Source: Dehalococcoidia bacterium
GTDB lineage: Bacteria; Chloroflexota; Dehalococcoidia; Bin125
DNA: 38,214 nt
Assembly: GCA_022822375.1 (NCBI GenBank)
Contig: JAJEBU010000128.1
Span: forward strand, 1-38,214
Direction of reading: 5' to 3'
Of this stretch, positions 8,930 to 15,615 are shown one piece after another. Made by a program: the position numbers and the translations under genes. Under the pieces are notes generated by a model. That model was not told the origin of the DNA and did not search any database. It worked only from the letters and a program-made list of their open reading frames with translations. Each line of letters begins with the position of its first letter. The stretch's first letter is position 1.

Positions 8930-9370
8930 TCAGGGACGGCCTCGTTCGATGTCATCGAGCCGGCGCCTCACATCGCCCAGAGACTCCAGCTCAGGCTGGT
9001 CGAGGGCTCTCCTGATGGTTACTCGACGGATCTGGGAAGTTGGCCGTAACGCTTCACGGATGATTTCGATATGATTCCGCAGCCGTTCCCGCTCGGCCTG
9101 CGGACCTCGAGGCTCACGCCTCGGTCGACCCAGCTTGATGATCCGAAGGCCGTCAAGCATCGCGCGGAGGGCATGCGGCTCAACCTCGGACTCGGTATAT
9201 CGATCGTGCGTCACGATGCCGTCGTACTCATTGGCCAGGGCAAACTCAAACAGCTGCACGTCGGAAGAACCCAGCAGGTTCAGGTCGGTCAAATGTGTCG
9301 CCTCGATGCCGAGTGACGTTAACTCTTCAGCAGCCTCAGGTGACGTATCTTCATCAACCAGCAGGCGCAT
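8930..9370 (-). CDS. PIN-like (DUF5615) protein, probable toxin
   Basis: A 146-residue protein. The N-terminal ~100 residues match the PIN-like DUF5615 family: MRLLVDEDTS at the start with acidic residues, ATHLTDLNLLGSSDVQLFEFA (about 25-45), and GIVTHDRY near 52-59. These acids form the metal site in PIN-type RNases. A basic, Arg-rich extension follows the PIN-like core. Its start overlaps the end of the DUF433 gene by 17 bases, the classic arrangement of a type II toxin-antitoxin pair with the toxin second. Activity as an RNase is inference. Whether the C-terminal tail contributes to target choice is unknown. Confidence 0.85.
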   Translation of the reverse strand: MRLLVDEDTSPEAAEELTSLGIEATHLTDLNLLGSSDVQLFEFALANEYDGIVTHDRYTESEVEPHALRAMLDGLRIIKLGRPRREPRGPQAERERLRNHIEIIREALRPTSQIRRVTIRRALDQPELESLGDVRRRLDDIERGRP

Positions 9371-10085
9371 ATGCGAACCCTGGACGACCCAATTCGATCT
9401 CGAAATCCAGGGCGCGGCGGACCTCGTCTCGCTTCAGCCGATAGGCGTCTGCAATCTGCTCGAGCGTCATGCCGCCTTGATGGAGGTCAGCGATCTGCGC
9501 AGTCTCGATCCGTCTGCCTTTGATCGTTGGCGCTCCGCCAACCACGTCGGGATCCATCGTGACCGAGTCTCCAAACGCATGCATCAAGCCGAGCGGGTCC
9601 TCATCGTCGAGATCACGCCAGATCTTCGAGAGCGCGGCCTCATCGAGAATCCCCTGAAGCTGCTCGGTCACGCGCTCCCTGTCAATCGGTCCTGAAGCGA
9701 CGAAATCGAAGAACGCACCTTGAGGTGTCCGCTCAGCGGTCTGCCCGTCCTGACCGTTCGGATTGACGAGCGCACGATTCTCTGTGACGGTCACCGGCCA
9801 GTCGGCGTTCGCGGGCACGACATCGATGAACTGCCGCAGGACACCGCGCAGGTACTGCGGCTTCACGCCGAGCGCGAGCAGTTTCGCGGCAAGTCTTGCT
9901 TGCCGATATCCGTTCCAGTCGTACCTGTGCGAGACACCCCGACGGCCGCGGCGTGCCGCGGGCACCAGCAGGCCGCTGCGGTTCCAGGCGCGCAGCTGAT
10001 CGCGGCTCAGACCTGTGAGACGGGCAATCAACCACGTCGGCAATGCGCCGCCGTGACGATCCAACGCTGCTGAAGTGCGGGACAT
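9354..10085 (-). CDS. MerR-like HTH plus DUF433 protein, probable antitoxin
   Basis: A 243-residue two-domain protein. The N-terminal part (about 14-90) resembles a MerR-type winged helix: WLIARLTGLSRDQLRAWNRS, then HRYDWNGYRQARLAAKLLAL. The C-terminal part (177-231) is DUF433, with VVGGAPTIKGRRI and a helix-turn-helix-like GGMTLEQIADAY. DUF433 alone is usually a small antitoxin of under 100 residues; here it is fused to a second DNA-binding domain and a long middle region. It overlaps the PIN-like gene by 17 bases. The natural reading is an antitoxin that neutralises the PIN-like protein and represses its own operon. It lies 37 bases downstream of the AhpD-like gene pair on the same strand, so read-through is possible. 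Confidence 0.86.
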   Translation of the reverse strand: MSRTSAALDRHGGALPTWLIARLTGLSRDQLRAWNRSGLLVPAARRGRRGVSHRYDWNGYRQARLAAKLLALGVKPQYLRGVLRQFIDVVPANADWPVTVTENRALVNPNGQDGQTAERTPQGAFFDFVASGPIDRERVTEQLQGILDEAALSKIWRDLDDEDPLGLMHAFGDSVTMDPDVVGGAPTIKGRRIETAQIADLHQGGMTLEQIADAYRLKRDEVRRALDFEIELGRPGFAYAPAG

Positions 10086-10122: not shown

Positions 10123-11205
10123 TTACGCCGTGTTTGCGGCGGAGGCGTATTGGTGCAGGCCGAGCTGGTCGCGCCAGCCTTCTGATGCTTCCTTGGTGCG
10201 ATCGTCGAGCGGGATGCCGCAGCCGTCGGCGATGCGGACCATGCGCTGGAAGTTCGCGATGTTCGCTGCAGCCTCGATGGCGGCGGTGTCGCCGAGTTCG
10301 CGGCGCACCGCAGCGCGGATCTCCGCCAGATTGGCGCGGCGGCCGACAGCGGCGTCGCAGAACTGCAGGAGCAGTCTGCCGTGCGGCACCCCGGAATCGA
10401 CGGCAACATCGACCGCAGCGGAGAGTTCGTACTGATCATCGGACCCACTCCGACCGAGCAGGTTGACGTGCGACACCGTTCAATAGAAGCACTCGTTGAG
10501 GGCAGACACGCGGCCAGCCATGATCTCCAGCTGGGCGCGGGTGAGCGTACGATGCTCGGTTTCGAGATCGCCGATCTCCTCCCAGCTCAGATAGTGGGCG
10601 TGGAACAGGTCGTTCAGCCAGCGGACGCTGTCCGGGTGGAGGCTCATCGCCGCCCAGACATTGGCGGCGCGTGGGAACCCCAGATAGATGTCGGCCTCGG
10701 AGTCGGCCAAGCTCTTCGCGGCCAGCGTCGGCGGCCAGCTACCGTTGTCGGCGAGGCCTGCGGGGCGCCGTTGGGTCGGTTCGCCGGTGATCGGACTGGG
10801 CAGCGGCTCGAGTGGCAGTCCCGCCGCGCGGTGGAACTCGTCGACCGACCAAACGGCAACCAGCACGCCGAGCAGCTCGACATATCGAGCGTCGGACATG
10901 CCGTCGGCGCTCACGGTGGCGTCGTACCAGTCTCGGCTCACATTGGGCAGGTCGCCGATCAGCCGATGGATGGCGAAGACGGCGGCCTCGGGCAGCTCAG
11001 CTGGTCCGGCGCCGGGATCAGGAAGACCGTCGACCAGCGCCGAGGCGCGTCGGCACTCGGCAGCGATGCTGACTCGCTCTGCGCCTGTCCACCAGTCACC
11101 TGCCGCGGAGAGGCGCTCCCAACTGCGGCGGTGGGCGTCGCGGATGCGGCCTGGAATCTGCCAATCTGTGTCGATGTAGCTGAACGGTGCGATGGTGGTC
11201 GTCAT
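10123..11205 (-). CDS. AhpD-like (CMD family) selenoprotein, copy 1
   Basis: Two stacked reading frames (10480-11205 and 10123-10476) are in the same frame and separated only by a TGA at 10480-10482 and one sense codon. Read through as selenocysteine the product is 360 residues with Sec242. The motif is E227-x11-C239-x2-U242-x3-H246 (local text ALNECFY-U-TVSHVNLL), precisely the AhpD alkylhydroperoxidase signature E-x11-C-x2-C-x3-H with the second Cys replaced by Sec. The N-terminal half resembles a cysteine-poor CMD-type domain (DWWTGAERVS near 37). A stem-loop follows the TGA (10446-10470). It lies 13 bases after copy 2 and shares much of its sequence, especially the last 45 residues. Probable role: peroxidase or disulfide reductase. 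TGA acts as an ordinary stop in other genes here, so the code is not reassigned. Confidence 0.85.
10446..10470 (-). promoter_or_regulatory. Candidate bacterial SECIS hairpin, copy 1
   Basis: Starting 10 bases after the TGA, CACGTCAACC pairs with GGTCGGAGTG. This gives eight pairs, one of them G-U, with two mismatches. The five-base apical loop TGCTC has G at its second position. The loop begins about 19 bases from the TGA, inside the range known for bacterial SECIS elements. Folding was done by eye. Confidence 0.5.
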
Positions 11206-11218
11206 CGTGACCTCTCTG

Positions 11219-12274
11219 TCATGCGGTGTTTGCGGCGGAGGCGTATTGGTGGAGGCCGAGCTGGTCTCGCCAGTCTTCCGATGCTTCCTTGGTGAAATCG
11301 TCGAGCGGGATGCCGCAGCCGTCGGCGATGCGGACCATGCGCTGGAAGTTGGCCACGACGCCGGCGCTGTCGACCAGCTCCTGCGGCCCGAGCTCAGCGG
11401 CGATCCGCTCTCTCAGTCCCGGCAATGAGTCGGTGCGACGCACGGCGGCCTCGGCGAATGCGGTCAGCAGGCTGTCGTGCGGGACACCGCTGTCGGAATG
11501 ATCGACGGCGCCTTGCAGATTCAAGCGATCGAGCGTGCCTTGTCGGTCGCTGCTCTCACGGAGCATGCGGACGTGCGAGGTGGTTCAATAGAAGCACTCG
11601 TTCAGCGCGGAGACGCGGGCGGCGATCAGTTCGATCTGCGGACGGGAGATGGCGCGCAACGGGTCGGGCATGCGCATTTCGCGGAACGACAGGTAGTGCG
11701 CCTCTGAGAGGTCGTGTAGCCAGCCTAGATTCTCGGGGATCAGGGAGAGCGCCGAGAGGACGTTGGCGCCCCACTCGAGCGGGCCGTAATGCTGGGCGAG
11801 CTCGGGCGGCAAGCCCGACTTGGGCACAATCGGCGCCCAGGACCACTTCTGTTCGGCGGCGGACGGCCGCTGCCGCGACGGATCGCCCGGCTGCGGATCG
11901 GGCAGCGGCTCCAGCGGGATTCCGAGCGCGCGGTGGAACTCGTCCACCGACAGCGCGTGCACGACGACAGCCACCAGCTCGATGTAGCGGTCTTCGGACA
12001 TGCCAGGCGCGGTGATGGTCTCGTCGTAGAAGCCGCGGTTGAGGTTGGCGTTGTCGACGACGAGCTTCTGGATCGCAAAGACCGCCGCCTCGGGCAGGAT
12101 GCTGCTCTTGGCAGGGTCGAAGTGTCGTGCGGCGCGCTGCAGGCGGGCGATCTCGACGCGTTCAGCGCCCGTCCACCAGCGGCCGGGCCGAGCGATCCGC
12201 TCCCAGCTGTCGCGGTGCGCGTTGATAGTCGTCTCTCGGATGGGCAGGTTCACGTCGGAGTATGCAAAGGCCAT
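11219..12274 (-). CDS. AhpD-like (CMD family) selenoprotein, copy 2
   Basis: As with copy 1, a TGA at 11585-11587 joins two in-frame segments (11585-12274 and 11219-11584, no other stop between them). Readthrough gives 351 residues with Sec230. The motif is E215-x11-C227-x2-U230-x3-H234 (ALNECFY-U-TTSHVRML). The N-terminal domain has RWWTGAERVEI and is clearly homologous to copy 1. The chosen ATG at 12274 aligns with copy 1; the frame stays open upstream to 12475 but that part overlaps the divergent crotonase and lacks similarity. This is the first gene of the pair, expressed from the intergenic palindrome at 12358-12386. Two diverged copies keeping TGA at the same codon argues strongly for selection for Sec and against decay. 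Substrate is unknown. Confidence 0.85.
11553..11579 (-). promoter_or_regulatory. Candidate bacterial SECIS hairpin, copy 2
   Basis: Five bases after the TGA, CTCGCACG pairs with CGTGAGAG at seven of eight positions (one G-A mismatch) around an 11-base loop TCCGCATGCTC that includes G. The CAC/GTG core pairs are the same ones used in copy 1, although the intervening sequence differs. The loop begins about 13 bases after TGA, slightly close for the usual spacing. Confidence 0.45.
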
Positions 12275-12429: not shown

Positions 12430-13275
12430 ATGATGTCGTACTACGAGGTGATCTACGAGCCCGGGCCGGTGGCACGGGTAATCATGAACCGTCCCGAGTA
12501 CCGCAACGCGCAGTCTCGCGTGCTGCTGGACGAGATTGATCGCGCGTTTCAGGAGGCGGCCGACGATCCCGAGTGCCGCGTGATCGTGCTCTCGGGCAAC
12601 GGGCCGGATTTCTCAGCCGGCCACGACCTCGGCTCGCCGCCGGAGCTGGCCGACCGTGAGATCAACGGTTGGGCGGACGACTTCGTCGGCGTCTTCGACC
12701 GTCAGCGCGACACGCGCATCTTCAACACGATGCGTTGGCGCAACAACCCCAAGCCAACCATCGCGATGGTGCACGGCAAGTGCATCTTTGGGGGATGGAT
12801 GGTGGCCGCGTCGATGGATCTGCTGTTCGCCTCGGACGATGCGCTGTTTCTGCCCTCGCATACGCAGTACTTTTCAGCGCCGTGGGACCTCGGCGTGCGC
12901 AAGGCGAAGGAGATCCTGTTTCAGAACCGCTTCATCCCGGCTCACGAGGCGATGGAGCTCGGCTTCGTCAACCAGGTCTATCCGTCGGAGGCACTGGAGC
13001 GAAAGACGCTGGAGTACGCCGCCGAAGTGGCCGAACGCTCGCCGATGACGCTGCGCCAAATCAAGCACTCGATCAACAACATGCAGGACGGTCAGGGTTT
13101 CTCGACGCACATCAACGCGAGCTTCATGACCTACGCGGTGGGTGCGCGCTTCGGGCAGCCCGACCCGCGCATGGTTGAGGGCAAGCGCCAACTCTCGCCA
13201 GTCGGCGAGGCGCTGGCCAAGCTGCAGAAGCCCGGCAACTTCGGCAAGCCGTGGCAGCCGTCGATCCATGTCTGA
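12430..13275 (+). CDS. Enoyl-CoA hydratase/isomerase (crotonase) family protein
   Basis: A 281-residue crotonase-fold protein. Oxyanion-hole elements are FSAGHDLGS (61-69) and MVHGKCIFGGW (113-123); the later motif FLPSHTQYFSAPWDLG replaces the classical PE-x-LG-PG-GG loop. The two glutamates used by true hydratases are not in their usual positions. The reaction may therefore be another crotonase chemistry on an acyl-CoA (isomerase, hydrolase or ring cleavage). Start at 12430 (ATGATG) follows an A/G-rich stretch, and is chosen over an upstream frame overlapping the promoter. Its last eight bases overlap the start of the CoA-transferase (ATGTCTGA), so the two form a CoA-thioester catabolic pair: one activates a carboxylate by CoA transfer, the other acts on the thioester. 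Confidence 0.94.
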   Translation: MMSYYEVIYEPGPVARVIMNRPEYRNAQSRVLLDEIDRAFQEAADDPECRVIVLSGNGPDFSAGHDLGSPPELADREINGWADDFVGVFDRQRDTRIFNTMRWRNNPKPTIAMVHGKCIFGGWMVAASMDLLFASDDALFLPSHTQYFSAPWDLGVRKAKEILFQNRFIPAHEAMELGFVNQVYPSEALERKTLEYAAEVAERSPMTLRQIKHSINNMQDGQGFSTHINASFMTYAVGARFGQPDPRMVEGKRQLSPVGEALAKLQKPGNFGKPWQPSIHV

Positions 13276-13855
13276 CGGCAACCTGCTGAGCGGCGTTCGA
13301 GTCGTCGAGCACATTCGAGACGTGCCGGCCGCCGCATGCGGCCGAGAGTTCGCGCGCTGGGGCGCAGACGTGTCGGTGTACGAGCCACCCGATTCGTTGC
13401 TGACGGCTGCGCATCCGCTGTTGCCGCGCGACGGCGAGATGGTCTCGCTGTTGCGGATGTCGCTGCTGCAGGGGACATCCATCGCTCCCCAAGCGGATGA
13501 GTGGCGCGGCGCCCTCGCTGACGCCGATGTGTTCGTCACGGACGCGCCGCTGTCCGAGCTGGAGGGCATCGCATCGGCGCACCCGCGTCTCGTCGTCGTG
13601 CACTGCTCTCCCTTCGGGACGTCGGGGCCGTATGCCGATCATCTGGCCGACGATTTGGTCATCCAGGCGCTGGCCGGCTTTGCCGGGACGAACGGCGATG
13701 CGGAGCGCGAGCCGTTGGCGGCGCCGGCGGCGATCATTCCCCGCGCCGTCGGTGTACTGGGGCGGTGGCGGCGTTCGCCGCTCTGCTGGAACGAATGCAC
13801 TCCGGTCGCGGCGAGTGGATTGAGCTGTCGTCGCACGAAGCGGTGTCGACGCTGA
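13268..13855 (+). pseudogene. Family III CoA-transferase, N-terminal part before frameshift
   Basis: From ATG 13268 the frame encodes the start of a CaiB/BaiF-type CoA-transferase (GVRVVEHIRDVPAAACGREF; then VVVHCSPFGTSGPYADH near 100-116). The recognisable sequence ends at about 13755 (AIIPRAVGVLG), after which the translation becomes nonsense and stops at 13855. The next frame continues the family sequence exactly there (AVAAFAALLERM), so one base is missing near 13751-13760. The span 13268-15615 is 2348 bases, one short of 783 codons. The lesion lies in GGTGTACTGGGGCGG, where a miscounted G run is possible, so this could be a sequencing error as well as a real mutation. Confidence 0.75.
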
Positions 13856-15615
13856 TTATGTCGCTGCGCTCGGAGCTCAGCGGCGTCGCGGTGCCCCGAT
13901 CAGGCGGACCCGAAGGCTGGGCGCAGGTCATGCAGACGTTAGACGGCTACATCACGCTGTCGCCCTGGTCGAAGGAGACGCTGCGCAACACTCCGATCGC
14001 CTTCGGCTGCGACCCGCCGCCCGACGAGCTGCTCTCGGGAGACGCCCGCTTCGCTGAGCGCGAGCCGTCGTTGGCGTACATGCAGCCGATCGTCGAGGCT
14101 CACGACGCAGAGACGATCTGGATGCGTCTGTCGGAGCTGGGCTGCGTGATGGCCAAGCACCGTTCGCCCCGCCAGCTGTTGGCCGATCCGCAGCTCAACG
14201 CGCTCGACTACTTCACGGAGACAGACGGGTTACGGGGGGCGGGACGGACGATGCGCCTGGCCAAGCATGGTCACGACGCGGAGCGATCAGATCGCTTCTC
14301 GCGGCGTCCACGACCGAAGCGCTCGACGGGGCCGCTGGACGGATTGCGCGTGGTCGACTTCACGCATGCGTGGCTCGGGCCGTACGCATCGGAACTCCTC
14401 AACGACCTCGGCGCCGAGGTGATCAAGGTGGAGGGTCCGCAGCGTCCGGACCTGTGGCGCTTCGAGGCAACCGGCAAGCACCGCTCAGCCTCACCGGACG
14501 CGCATCCGCTGAATGTGCGCGCCAACTTCAACATGGCCAATCGCGGCAAGCGCAGCATCTCGCTCGCGCTCGACCGCGAGGCCGGCAGAGCGGCGGCGCT
14601 GCGGCTCATCGCCCGCGCTGATGTCGTACTGGAGAACTTCCGTCCGCGCGTCCTGCACAACCTGCGCCTGACACTCGATGACATGCGGACGGTCAATCCG
14701 CACATCGCGTTGGTCTCGTTCTCGGGCTTCGGTACGGGCGGACCCTACGACAACTTCCGAGCCAACGGCGGCACCACAGAGGGCAACGCCGGCTGGGACC
14801 TGTTGATGGGCTACCCGGGCGAAGCGCCGATGCTGCTAGGCACGATGCAGGCCGACCCGATCGTCGGCGCGCAGATGGCTTCCGCCGCACTCGCCGCGGT
14901 GTTCCAGGCCCAGTCGCAACCGGGCGCCATCCAGATCGAAAGCTCGATGTTCGAATCCGCGGTCGGCTACATCGACGAGTATCTGCTGGCCGCTTCGGCC
15001 GGCCTGCCCGATCACGTACGCAACGGCAATCGCCGGTCTGGCGTCGTGCCGCGAGGCTGCTTCCGTTGCGCGGACGGAGCTGACGGTTCGGATCAGTGGA
15101 TTGCCATCTCGGTACCCGACGACGACTCATGGCAGCGCCTGGCGGAAACAGCGCGCTCGGTCGGTCTGAATCGTCCCGAGTGGCGGACGATCGAGGGTCG
15201 GCAGACTGGCGAGGCTGAGATTGAACAGGCGCTGTCGACATGGATGCGCTCGTGGGATTCGCAGACACTGCAACACCGCTTGCAATCCGTGGGTGTCGCC
15301 GCCGGCGCTGTGCACTCAACGCTCACACACCTGCGCGATCCCCAGCTCGCCGCCCGCAGCTGGTGGCTGCATCTGACGCATCCGGACATGGGCACGCGAC
15401 AGTATCAGGGCGTTCCCTATCGGTTGTCGCGTCGACCGGCGGAATGCGTCCGTCCCGCCCCGCGAATGGGGGAGCACACGGTCGAGGTGCTGCGGGACGA
15501 GCTGGGCTACTCGGATGCGGAAATCGAGGCGTTGATCGCATCCGGTGCGGCCGCAGGTCTGACGGCAGCCAGCGAGCCCGGCGATCCGCCCACGCGGCCC
15601 ATCAGTCCGCGCTGA
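13765..15615 (+). CDS. Family III (CaiB/BaiF) CoA-transferase, main part
   Basis: A 616-residue segment that, together with the upstream frame, makes a double-domain family III CoA-transferase of about 782 residues. Here one sees the rest of the first domain (HSGRGEWIELSSHEA) and a complete second domain. The second domain starts LDGLRVVDFTHAWLGPYASE, continues NMANRGKRSISLAL and VSFSGFGTGGPYDN, and includes MLLGTMQADPIVGAQMA, where the Asp is the likely catalytic residue. These enzymes move CoA between organic acids through an aspartyl-CoA intermediate. The GTG at 13765 is only a nominal start: true translation should begin at 13268 in the intact gene. Fused CaiB pairs are known. The substrate cannot be read; the neighbour is a crotonase, which suggests acid catabolism. 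Confidence 0.85.
   Translation: MAAFAALLERMHSGRGEWIELSSHEAVSTLIMSLRSELSGVAVPRSGGPEGWAQVMQTLDGYITLSPWSKETLRNTPIAFGCDPPPDELLSGDARFAEREPSLAYMQPIVEAHDAETIWMRLSELGCVMAKHRSPRQLLADPQLNALDYFTETDGLRGAGRTMRLAKHGHDAERSDRFSRRPRPKRSTGPLDGLRVVDFTHAWLGPYASELLNDLGAEVIKVEGPQRPDLWRFEATGKHRSASPDAHPLNVRANFNMANRGKRSISLALDREAGRAAALRLIARADVVLENFRPRVLHNLRLTLDDMRTVNPHIALVSFSGFGTGGPYDNFRANGGTTEGNAGWDLLMGYPGEAPMLLGTMQADPIVGAQMASAALAAVFQAQSQPGAIQIESSMFESAVGYIDEYLLAASAGLPDHVRNGNRRSGVVPRGCFRCADGADGSDQWIAISVPDDDSWQRLAETARSVGLNRPEWRTIEGRQTGEAEIEQALSTWMRSWDSQTLQHRLQSVGVAAGAVHSTLTHLRDPQLAARSWWLHLTHPDMGTRQYQGVPYRLSRRPAECVRPAPRMGEHTVEVLRDELGYSDAEIEALIASGAAAGLTAASEPGDPPTRPISPR

Follow-up and report, generated by a model that had tools for sequence, protein, structure and literature searches.

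Two adjacent genes, A and B, in the 38,214-nucleotide stretch of DNA analysed here (the window), which comes from an uncultured Chloroflexota bacterium, each encode an AhpD-related protein in which an in-frame TGA stands at the place of the second Cys of the CxxC motif, and in both genes this codon is almost certainly decoded as selenocysteine (Sec). The reading draws on the agreement of four lines of evidence: the Sec decoding machinery of the genome, a SECIS hairpin downstream of each TGA, purifying selection past the TGA, and fixation of TGA throughout the family to which both genes belong, NF041238. As a joint claim, that the two products are selenoproteins and that they have a thiol/selenol redox role is very likely.

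The genes lie on the same strand, with gene A upstream of gene B (Table 1). Each translates in one frame with a single internal TGA, and both TGAs fall in frame exactly where the preliminary description of this DNA had placed them. The AhpD motif that it had claimed for the two genes was likewise found in both, as E-x11-C-F-Y-[TGA]-T-x2-H (that is, E-x11-C-x-Y-[TGA]-x3-H). Gene A ends at an ordinary TGA (11219-11221) and gene B at a TAA. The 13-base spacer and the AGAGAGGT ahead of the gene B start codon suggest that the two genes share one transcript.

Table 1. Positions in the window of the paired genes and of the elements within and between them.
Feature	Position	Strand	Basis
Gene A, AhpD-related selenoprotein, 351 aa, Sec230	11219..12274	minus	translation; NF041238 353 bits
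Gene B, AhpD-related selenoprotein, 360 aa, Sec at residue 242	10123..11205	minus	translation; NF041238 340 bits
Gene A Sec codon, in-frame TGA at the second-Cys place of CxxC	11585..11587	minus	translation, alignment
Gene B Sec codon, in-frame TGA	10480..10482	minus	translation, alignment
A-B spacer, 13 bases, Shine-Dalgarno-like AGAGAGGT ahead of gene B ATG	11206..11218	minus	sequence
Gene A SECIS hairpin, stem (T)GCTC/GAGC(A), 5-nt loop CGTGA	11551..11565	minus	fold z -3.1 against synonymous resampling
Gene B SECIS hairpin, stem (T)GCTC/GAGT(G), 5-nt loop GGTCG	10446..10460	minus	fold z -2.2 against synonymous resampling
3' end of gene B, ~90% DNA identity to gene A 3' end (11219-11361)	10123..10262	minus	likely gene-conversion tract

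The window corresponds to contig C40 of a genome with a size of 2.72 Mb and a completeness of 95.6%. This genome was found to encode SelA, SelB and SelD together with a tRNA-Sec with anticodon UCA (66.4 bits). The SelD gene (L020, G000:C110:7468-8409) likewise encodes a selenoprotein: it carries an internal TGA of its own in the context LTDLANCGG-U-GSK, a position (GGUGSK) which we take to be the one where SelD proteins with Sec usually have it. Among 20 more distant genomes carrying NF041238 members, 18 contain SelB over its cut-off; in the other two (G102 and G103) no SelB over the cut-off was found, perhaps due to incomplete assemblies. TGA also ends other genes of the window in addition to gene A, in agreement with the earlier statement that TGA is a normal stop here. 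A recoded genome was rejected as an explanation.

Other genes of the window, and gene A at its 3' end, use TGA as a normal stop, and this is also what would be expected if the two internal TGAs were real stops, leaving decayed genes or N-terminal fragments whose second half is translated separately or not at all. This possibility is exceedingly small, given the full Sec machinery of the genome and the behaviour of the family around the TGA. Family searches, in which genomes were translated through stops and the stops counted, covered about 1,050 genomes. All 125 NF041238 members over the cut-off, from several phyla, have TGA at the same codon; each contains a single internal TGA and neither TAA nor TAG, and the claim that the pattern reflects neither decay nor chance is thereby upheld. 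A class-level search of 393 genomes gave 32 matches over the cut-off, 379 genomes from the phylum to which a Myxococcota locus belongs gave 92, spread over 57 genomes, and 274 genomes from the class containing a Pseudomonadales locus gave one; each of these matches has one TGA, as does every match over the cut-off in the home genus. No homologue ends at the TGA codon among the 125 members, and none of them is a Cys form. Similarly, in a scan of GTDB genomes, all copies covering the motif among the top 80 loci carry Sec. Terminal stops served as an internal control: in 26 genes they comprise 11 TGA, 9 TAG and 6 TAA. That the internal TGA is always kept while the terminal stops vary freely supports its reading as a Sec codon.

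Selection past the TGA argues in the same direction. Upstream of the TGA, median dN/dS is 0.14 in A copies and 0.15 in B copies; downstream of it, the values are 0.15 and 0.21, respectively. Since the values after the TGA are close to those before it, the downstream segment is, as judged from substitution patterns, a translated and constrained protein. Two separate proteins were rejected as an explanation, as were decayed genes, the latter in view of the purifying selection after the TGA, the constraint on the SECIS element and the fixation of TGA.

The SECIS constraint resides in a small hairpin. As given in a recent review, the bacterial SECIS model calls for a stem of at least 4 bp, a loop of 3-9 nt with a G in loop positions 1-2, and a loop lying 16-37 nt after the UGA (PMC13188914). 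The hairpins of this family have a stem of 4-5 bp, a 5-nt loop that begins 24 nt after the TGA, and a G at position 29, where numbering starts at the first base of the TGA. The pattern (T)GCTC-[5 nt]-GAGC occurs 3' of the TGA in nearly all family genes, with G29 invariant. Against a null of synonymous codon resampling within each gene, the hairpin was seen in 90 of 94 genes, with 14.3 expected. Codon bias relative to each gene's own usage peaks at the stem-loop (Leu CTC, z 15.3; Arg CGT, z 20.9; Ser AGC, z 12.8) and does not exceed z 9 outside the stem-loop codons, and a compensatory change from C27-G33 to U27-A33 is present in four sequences. In a held-out test, the hairpin was recovered in 15 of 15 genes left out of its definition and in none when the pattern was slid by 3 or 6 bases. 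RNAalifold over 48 columns returned no consensus structure, because only 4-5 bp are common to the sequences, and the synonymous-resampling test was used for this reason. Rfam at gathering thresholds reported no SECIS family in the window. Shorter AhpD-like selenoproteins of about 200 aa, of the same class and with the motif CRYUT and variants, occur at other loci (L037-L041 and L044), where the sequences 3' of the TGA differ from the family hairpin; one of these loci (L038) contains two such genes in tandem.

Both proteins match NF041238 (AhpD_rel_CFYUT) over nearly full length, with scores of 353.1 bits for gene A and 340.3 bits for gene B against a curated cut-off of 175 bits, and both carry its CFYUT motif as CFY-TGA-T. 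Length, motif and Sec position are the same as in this family of alkylhydroperoxidase-related (seleno)proteins. Neither AhpD proper (TIGR00777, ~14 bits against a cut-off of 192) nor the peroxidase-related family (TIGR01926, 29-31 bits against 81.8) reaches its threshold. The CMD domain (PF02627, cut-off 23 bits) is matched by gene A at 31.2 bits and by gene B just under the cut-off at 19.8 bits, and at E<1 by 50 of 50 relatives. The public relatives closest to the genome of the window bear the name Dehalococcoidia or Chloroflexota, including one locus (L053) at 93% identity, and among plasmid records none was found to encode a relative.

The family itself has been catalogued before. A 2026 review includes NF041238 under the description "AhpD-related protein (hypothetical protein 1, Sargasso Sea metagenome)" and gives its motif as CxxU (PMC13188914), and the 2005 Sargasso Sea selenoproteome study lists four Sec sequences of "hypothetical protein 1" with predicted SECIS elements and some Cys homologues (PMC1088965). 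The preliminary description had called a tandem pair of this type with Sec at least rare, a view that must be revised as regards the family: carriers make up 58 of 379 genomes (about 15%) in the Myxococcota-like sample, where the family is often present in multiple copies. What is new comes down to three features: that the tandem is conserved, that Cys forms seem to be lacking, and that the architecture is Sestrin-like. The present case differs from NF041238 as described in that two old paralogues stand in direct tandem, an arrangement conserved within one genus; a literature search found no paper on a tandem of NF041238 members, and a literature text search for CFYUT returned no match. The fold and the Sestrin-like architecture are absent from the passages on this family in the published accounts (PMC1088965; PMC13188914).

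In many selenoprotein families, Cys forms far outnumber Sec forms, and a family such as NF041238, without a Cys form among the members found, could show what Sec is needed for. Within the genus, A and B have each kept the UGA, the SECIS element and the dependence on Sec machinery throughout its history.

A structural model built from 50 diverse relatives reached a pLDDT of 95 and a pTM of 0.94; it supersedes an earlier model from a shallow alignment (pLDDT 80), which had given the same top structural match. For this predicted model, the best solved match by VIA-align is Sestrin2 (Z 17.2, rmsd 3.2, 243 residues, 11% identity, model residues 1-323). Next come single-domain AhpD-like proteins, which align to residues 142-333 with Z of at most 14.2, while unrelated folds lie at Z of 2.5 or less. 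Foldseek places the single-domain AhpD-like proteins first. The model thus indicates that each protein would be a fused pair of AhpD-like halves in a Sestrin-like arrangement. In the C-terminal half, E215, C227, F228, Y229, Sec230, T231 and H234 do not vary across 94 sequences. From the N-terminal half the CxxC motif has been lost, with E99-x11-D111-x2-H114 in its place, and R47, Y97, E99 and D111 are invariant in the same 94 sequences. The shared fold and the parallel between E-x11-D and E-x11-C suggest an internal duplication; when the N-terminal and C-terminal halves were compared by hhalign, no significant match emerged, so the suggestion draws on fold and motif. In most relatives from other genera, the N-terminal half contains an additional CxLCxxRKxALSP segment (seen in the A2 alignment, for example in L066-L132 and L064:5127-6248); this segment is absent from both window copies.

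The C-terminal half has the fold and the E-x11-C-x-Y-[C/U]-x3-H motif of AhpD-like and peroxidase-related proteins (2prr, YP_296737.1; 6k40; TIGR01926), from which it differs in having Sec for the second Cys and an extra N-terminal AhpD-like half without CxxC. Residues E215, C227, Y229, Sec230 and H234 correspond to Glu74, Cys86, Tyr88, Cys89 and His93 of YP_296737.1 (PMC4674687). In human Sestrin2, two AhpD-like domains are arranged with pseudo-twofold symmetry, and Cys125 belongs to the N-terminal domain (PMC4674687). Sestrin2 therefore shares with the present proteins two AhpD-like halves in one chain, but its active site lies in the N-terminal half, whereas here the CxxU motif is in the C-terminal half and D111 and H114 occupy the CxxC places of the N-terminal half; in addition, the present proteins have Sec. 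The Pfam Sestrin family PA26 is not among the matches at E<1 for 50 family members. Similar in layout are the alkyl hydroperoxidases of Corynebacterium and Comamonas, described along with YciW in a 2024 review as fused AhpD-like dimers, in which the two cysteines are kept in the C-terminal domain and lost from the N-terminal one (PMC11429811). Compared by description, these enzymes show the same half swap as here, but with Cys.

In the proposed mechanism, SelB and Sec-tRNA would read the in-frame UGA because of the downstream SECIS hairpin, and the terminal UGA of gene A, which has no such hairpin in its sequence, would act as a stop. The active site would lie in the C-terminal half and comprise E215, C227, Y229, Sec230 and H234. 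In AhpD chemistry, attack on the hydroperoxide is followed by the action of a resolving Cys, and a thiol reductant restores the enzyme. By analogy, the selenolate of Sec230, activated by a Glu/His relay, would most likely reduce an organic hydroperoxide, C227 would resolve Sec230 as a selenenyl sulfide, and a cellular thiol system would then reduce this intermediate. The preliminary description had proposed a CxxU peroxidase or redox enzyme; all decoding tests agree with the CxxU selenoprotein, while the peroxidase part is deduced from fold and motif, and a hydroperoxide is moderately favoured as the substrate.

The proteins could instead be selenoproteins of another activity, namely selenol-dependent reductases acting on a disulfide, sulfoxide or halogenated compound, comparable to the debrominase Bmp8. 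This is a possible but less likely function. Bmp8 has the AhpD fold and is among the structural matches (Z 13.2), there is no peroxiredoxin or AhpC among the neighbouring genes, and lipid/CoA genes recur nearby. However, the Glu, Tyr and His of the proton relay are placed as in peroxidase-related AhpD proteins (PMC4674687), and the top single-domain structural matches are peroxidase-related proteins. A further alternative takes the full-length match to Sestrin2 as a guide to function: the N-terminal half would bind a ligand or partner, the Sec half would read the redox state, and A and B would form a hetero-oligomeric sensor. The retention of invariant E99, D111, Y97 and R47 in a half whose CxxC is gone would fit such a role, as would the persistence of two ancient paralogous clades next to each other. 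Nevertheless, with no Sestrin sequence similarity detected (no PA26 among the matches listed) and with Sestrin-like fused AhpD dimers of other bacteria described without evidence of sensing (PMC11429811), a sensor is improbable. It is also rather unlikely, though less so than a sensor, that A and B form one hetero-oligomeric selenoenzyme in the genus and that NF041238 is a Sec-only, Sestrin-like fused AhpD dimer with its active site in the opposite half. If true, this combination would provide a bacterial counterpart for testing the origin of the Sestrin layout. Irrespective of activity, a confident Sestrin-like model of an uncharacterised selenoprotein family yields a clear biochemical hypothesis.

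Of the 15 genomes of the genus, 11 have A and B as direct neighbours, and so does G017, which belongs to a second genus of the same family. In the tree, A and B form two supported clades within the genus; one G017 copy groups with A, whereas the second branches off basal to both clades. As this placement indicates, the duplication that gave rise to A and B is older than the genus. The two copies had been described as diverged outside the motif, which is true of the proteins as a whole (53% identical) but not of the last ~47 codons, which are ~90% identical in DNA. For two further pairs of the genus, DNA identity over the same 3' stretch is 37-80%, with 0.4-0.6 at its extreme end, and among the copies aligned the C-terminus LGLHQYASAANT is common to A and B only in the window and in G007. 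Because this 3' identity is unlike that in most of the genus, the ends of A and B have likely been homogenised recently by gene conversion. In Myxococcota-like genomes, several family copies per genome are common, and convergent or opposed pairs occur in Myxococcota at L079, L088, G109:C80 and G985:C267.

In the window, the pair is flanked on one side by genes for enoyl-CoA hydratase and class III CoA-transferase, and on the other by a MerR/DUF433-DUF5615 pair and riboflavin genes; these neighbours do not point firmly to a function. Outside the genus, the neighbours are scattered lipid/CoA genes with no clear theme and no gene partner; CoA-transferase III, enoyl-CoA hydratase, AMP ligase and SDR genes recur. 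As these recurring neighbours are few, mixed in orientation and counted without a background control, no pathway is claimed. On the minus strand at 8930-10085, the DUF5615/PIN-like gene overlaps the gene with a MerR-type HTH and DUF433, in a toxin-antitoxin-like arrangement. The CoA-transferase III gene (13142-15615, plus strand) does not stay in one frame: near 13760, in ctggggcggtgg, its first frame terminates and a second takes over, at a point where its relatives continue as PRAVGxLGAV; the split is probably a one-base loss in a run of G, whether genuine or from the assembly.
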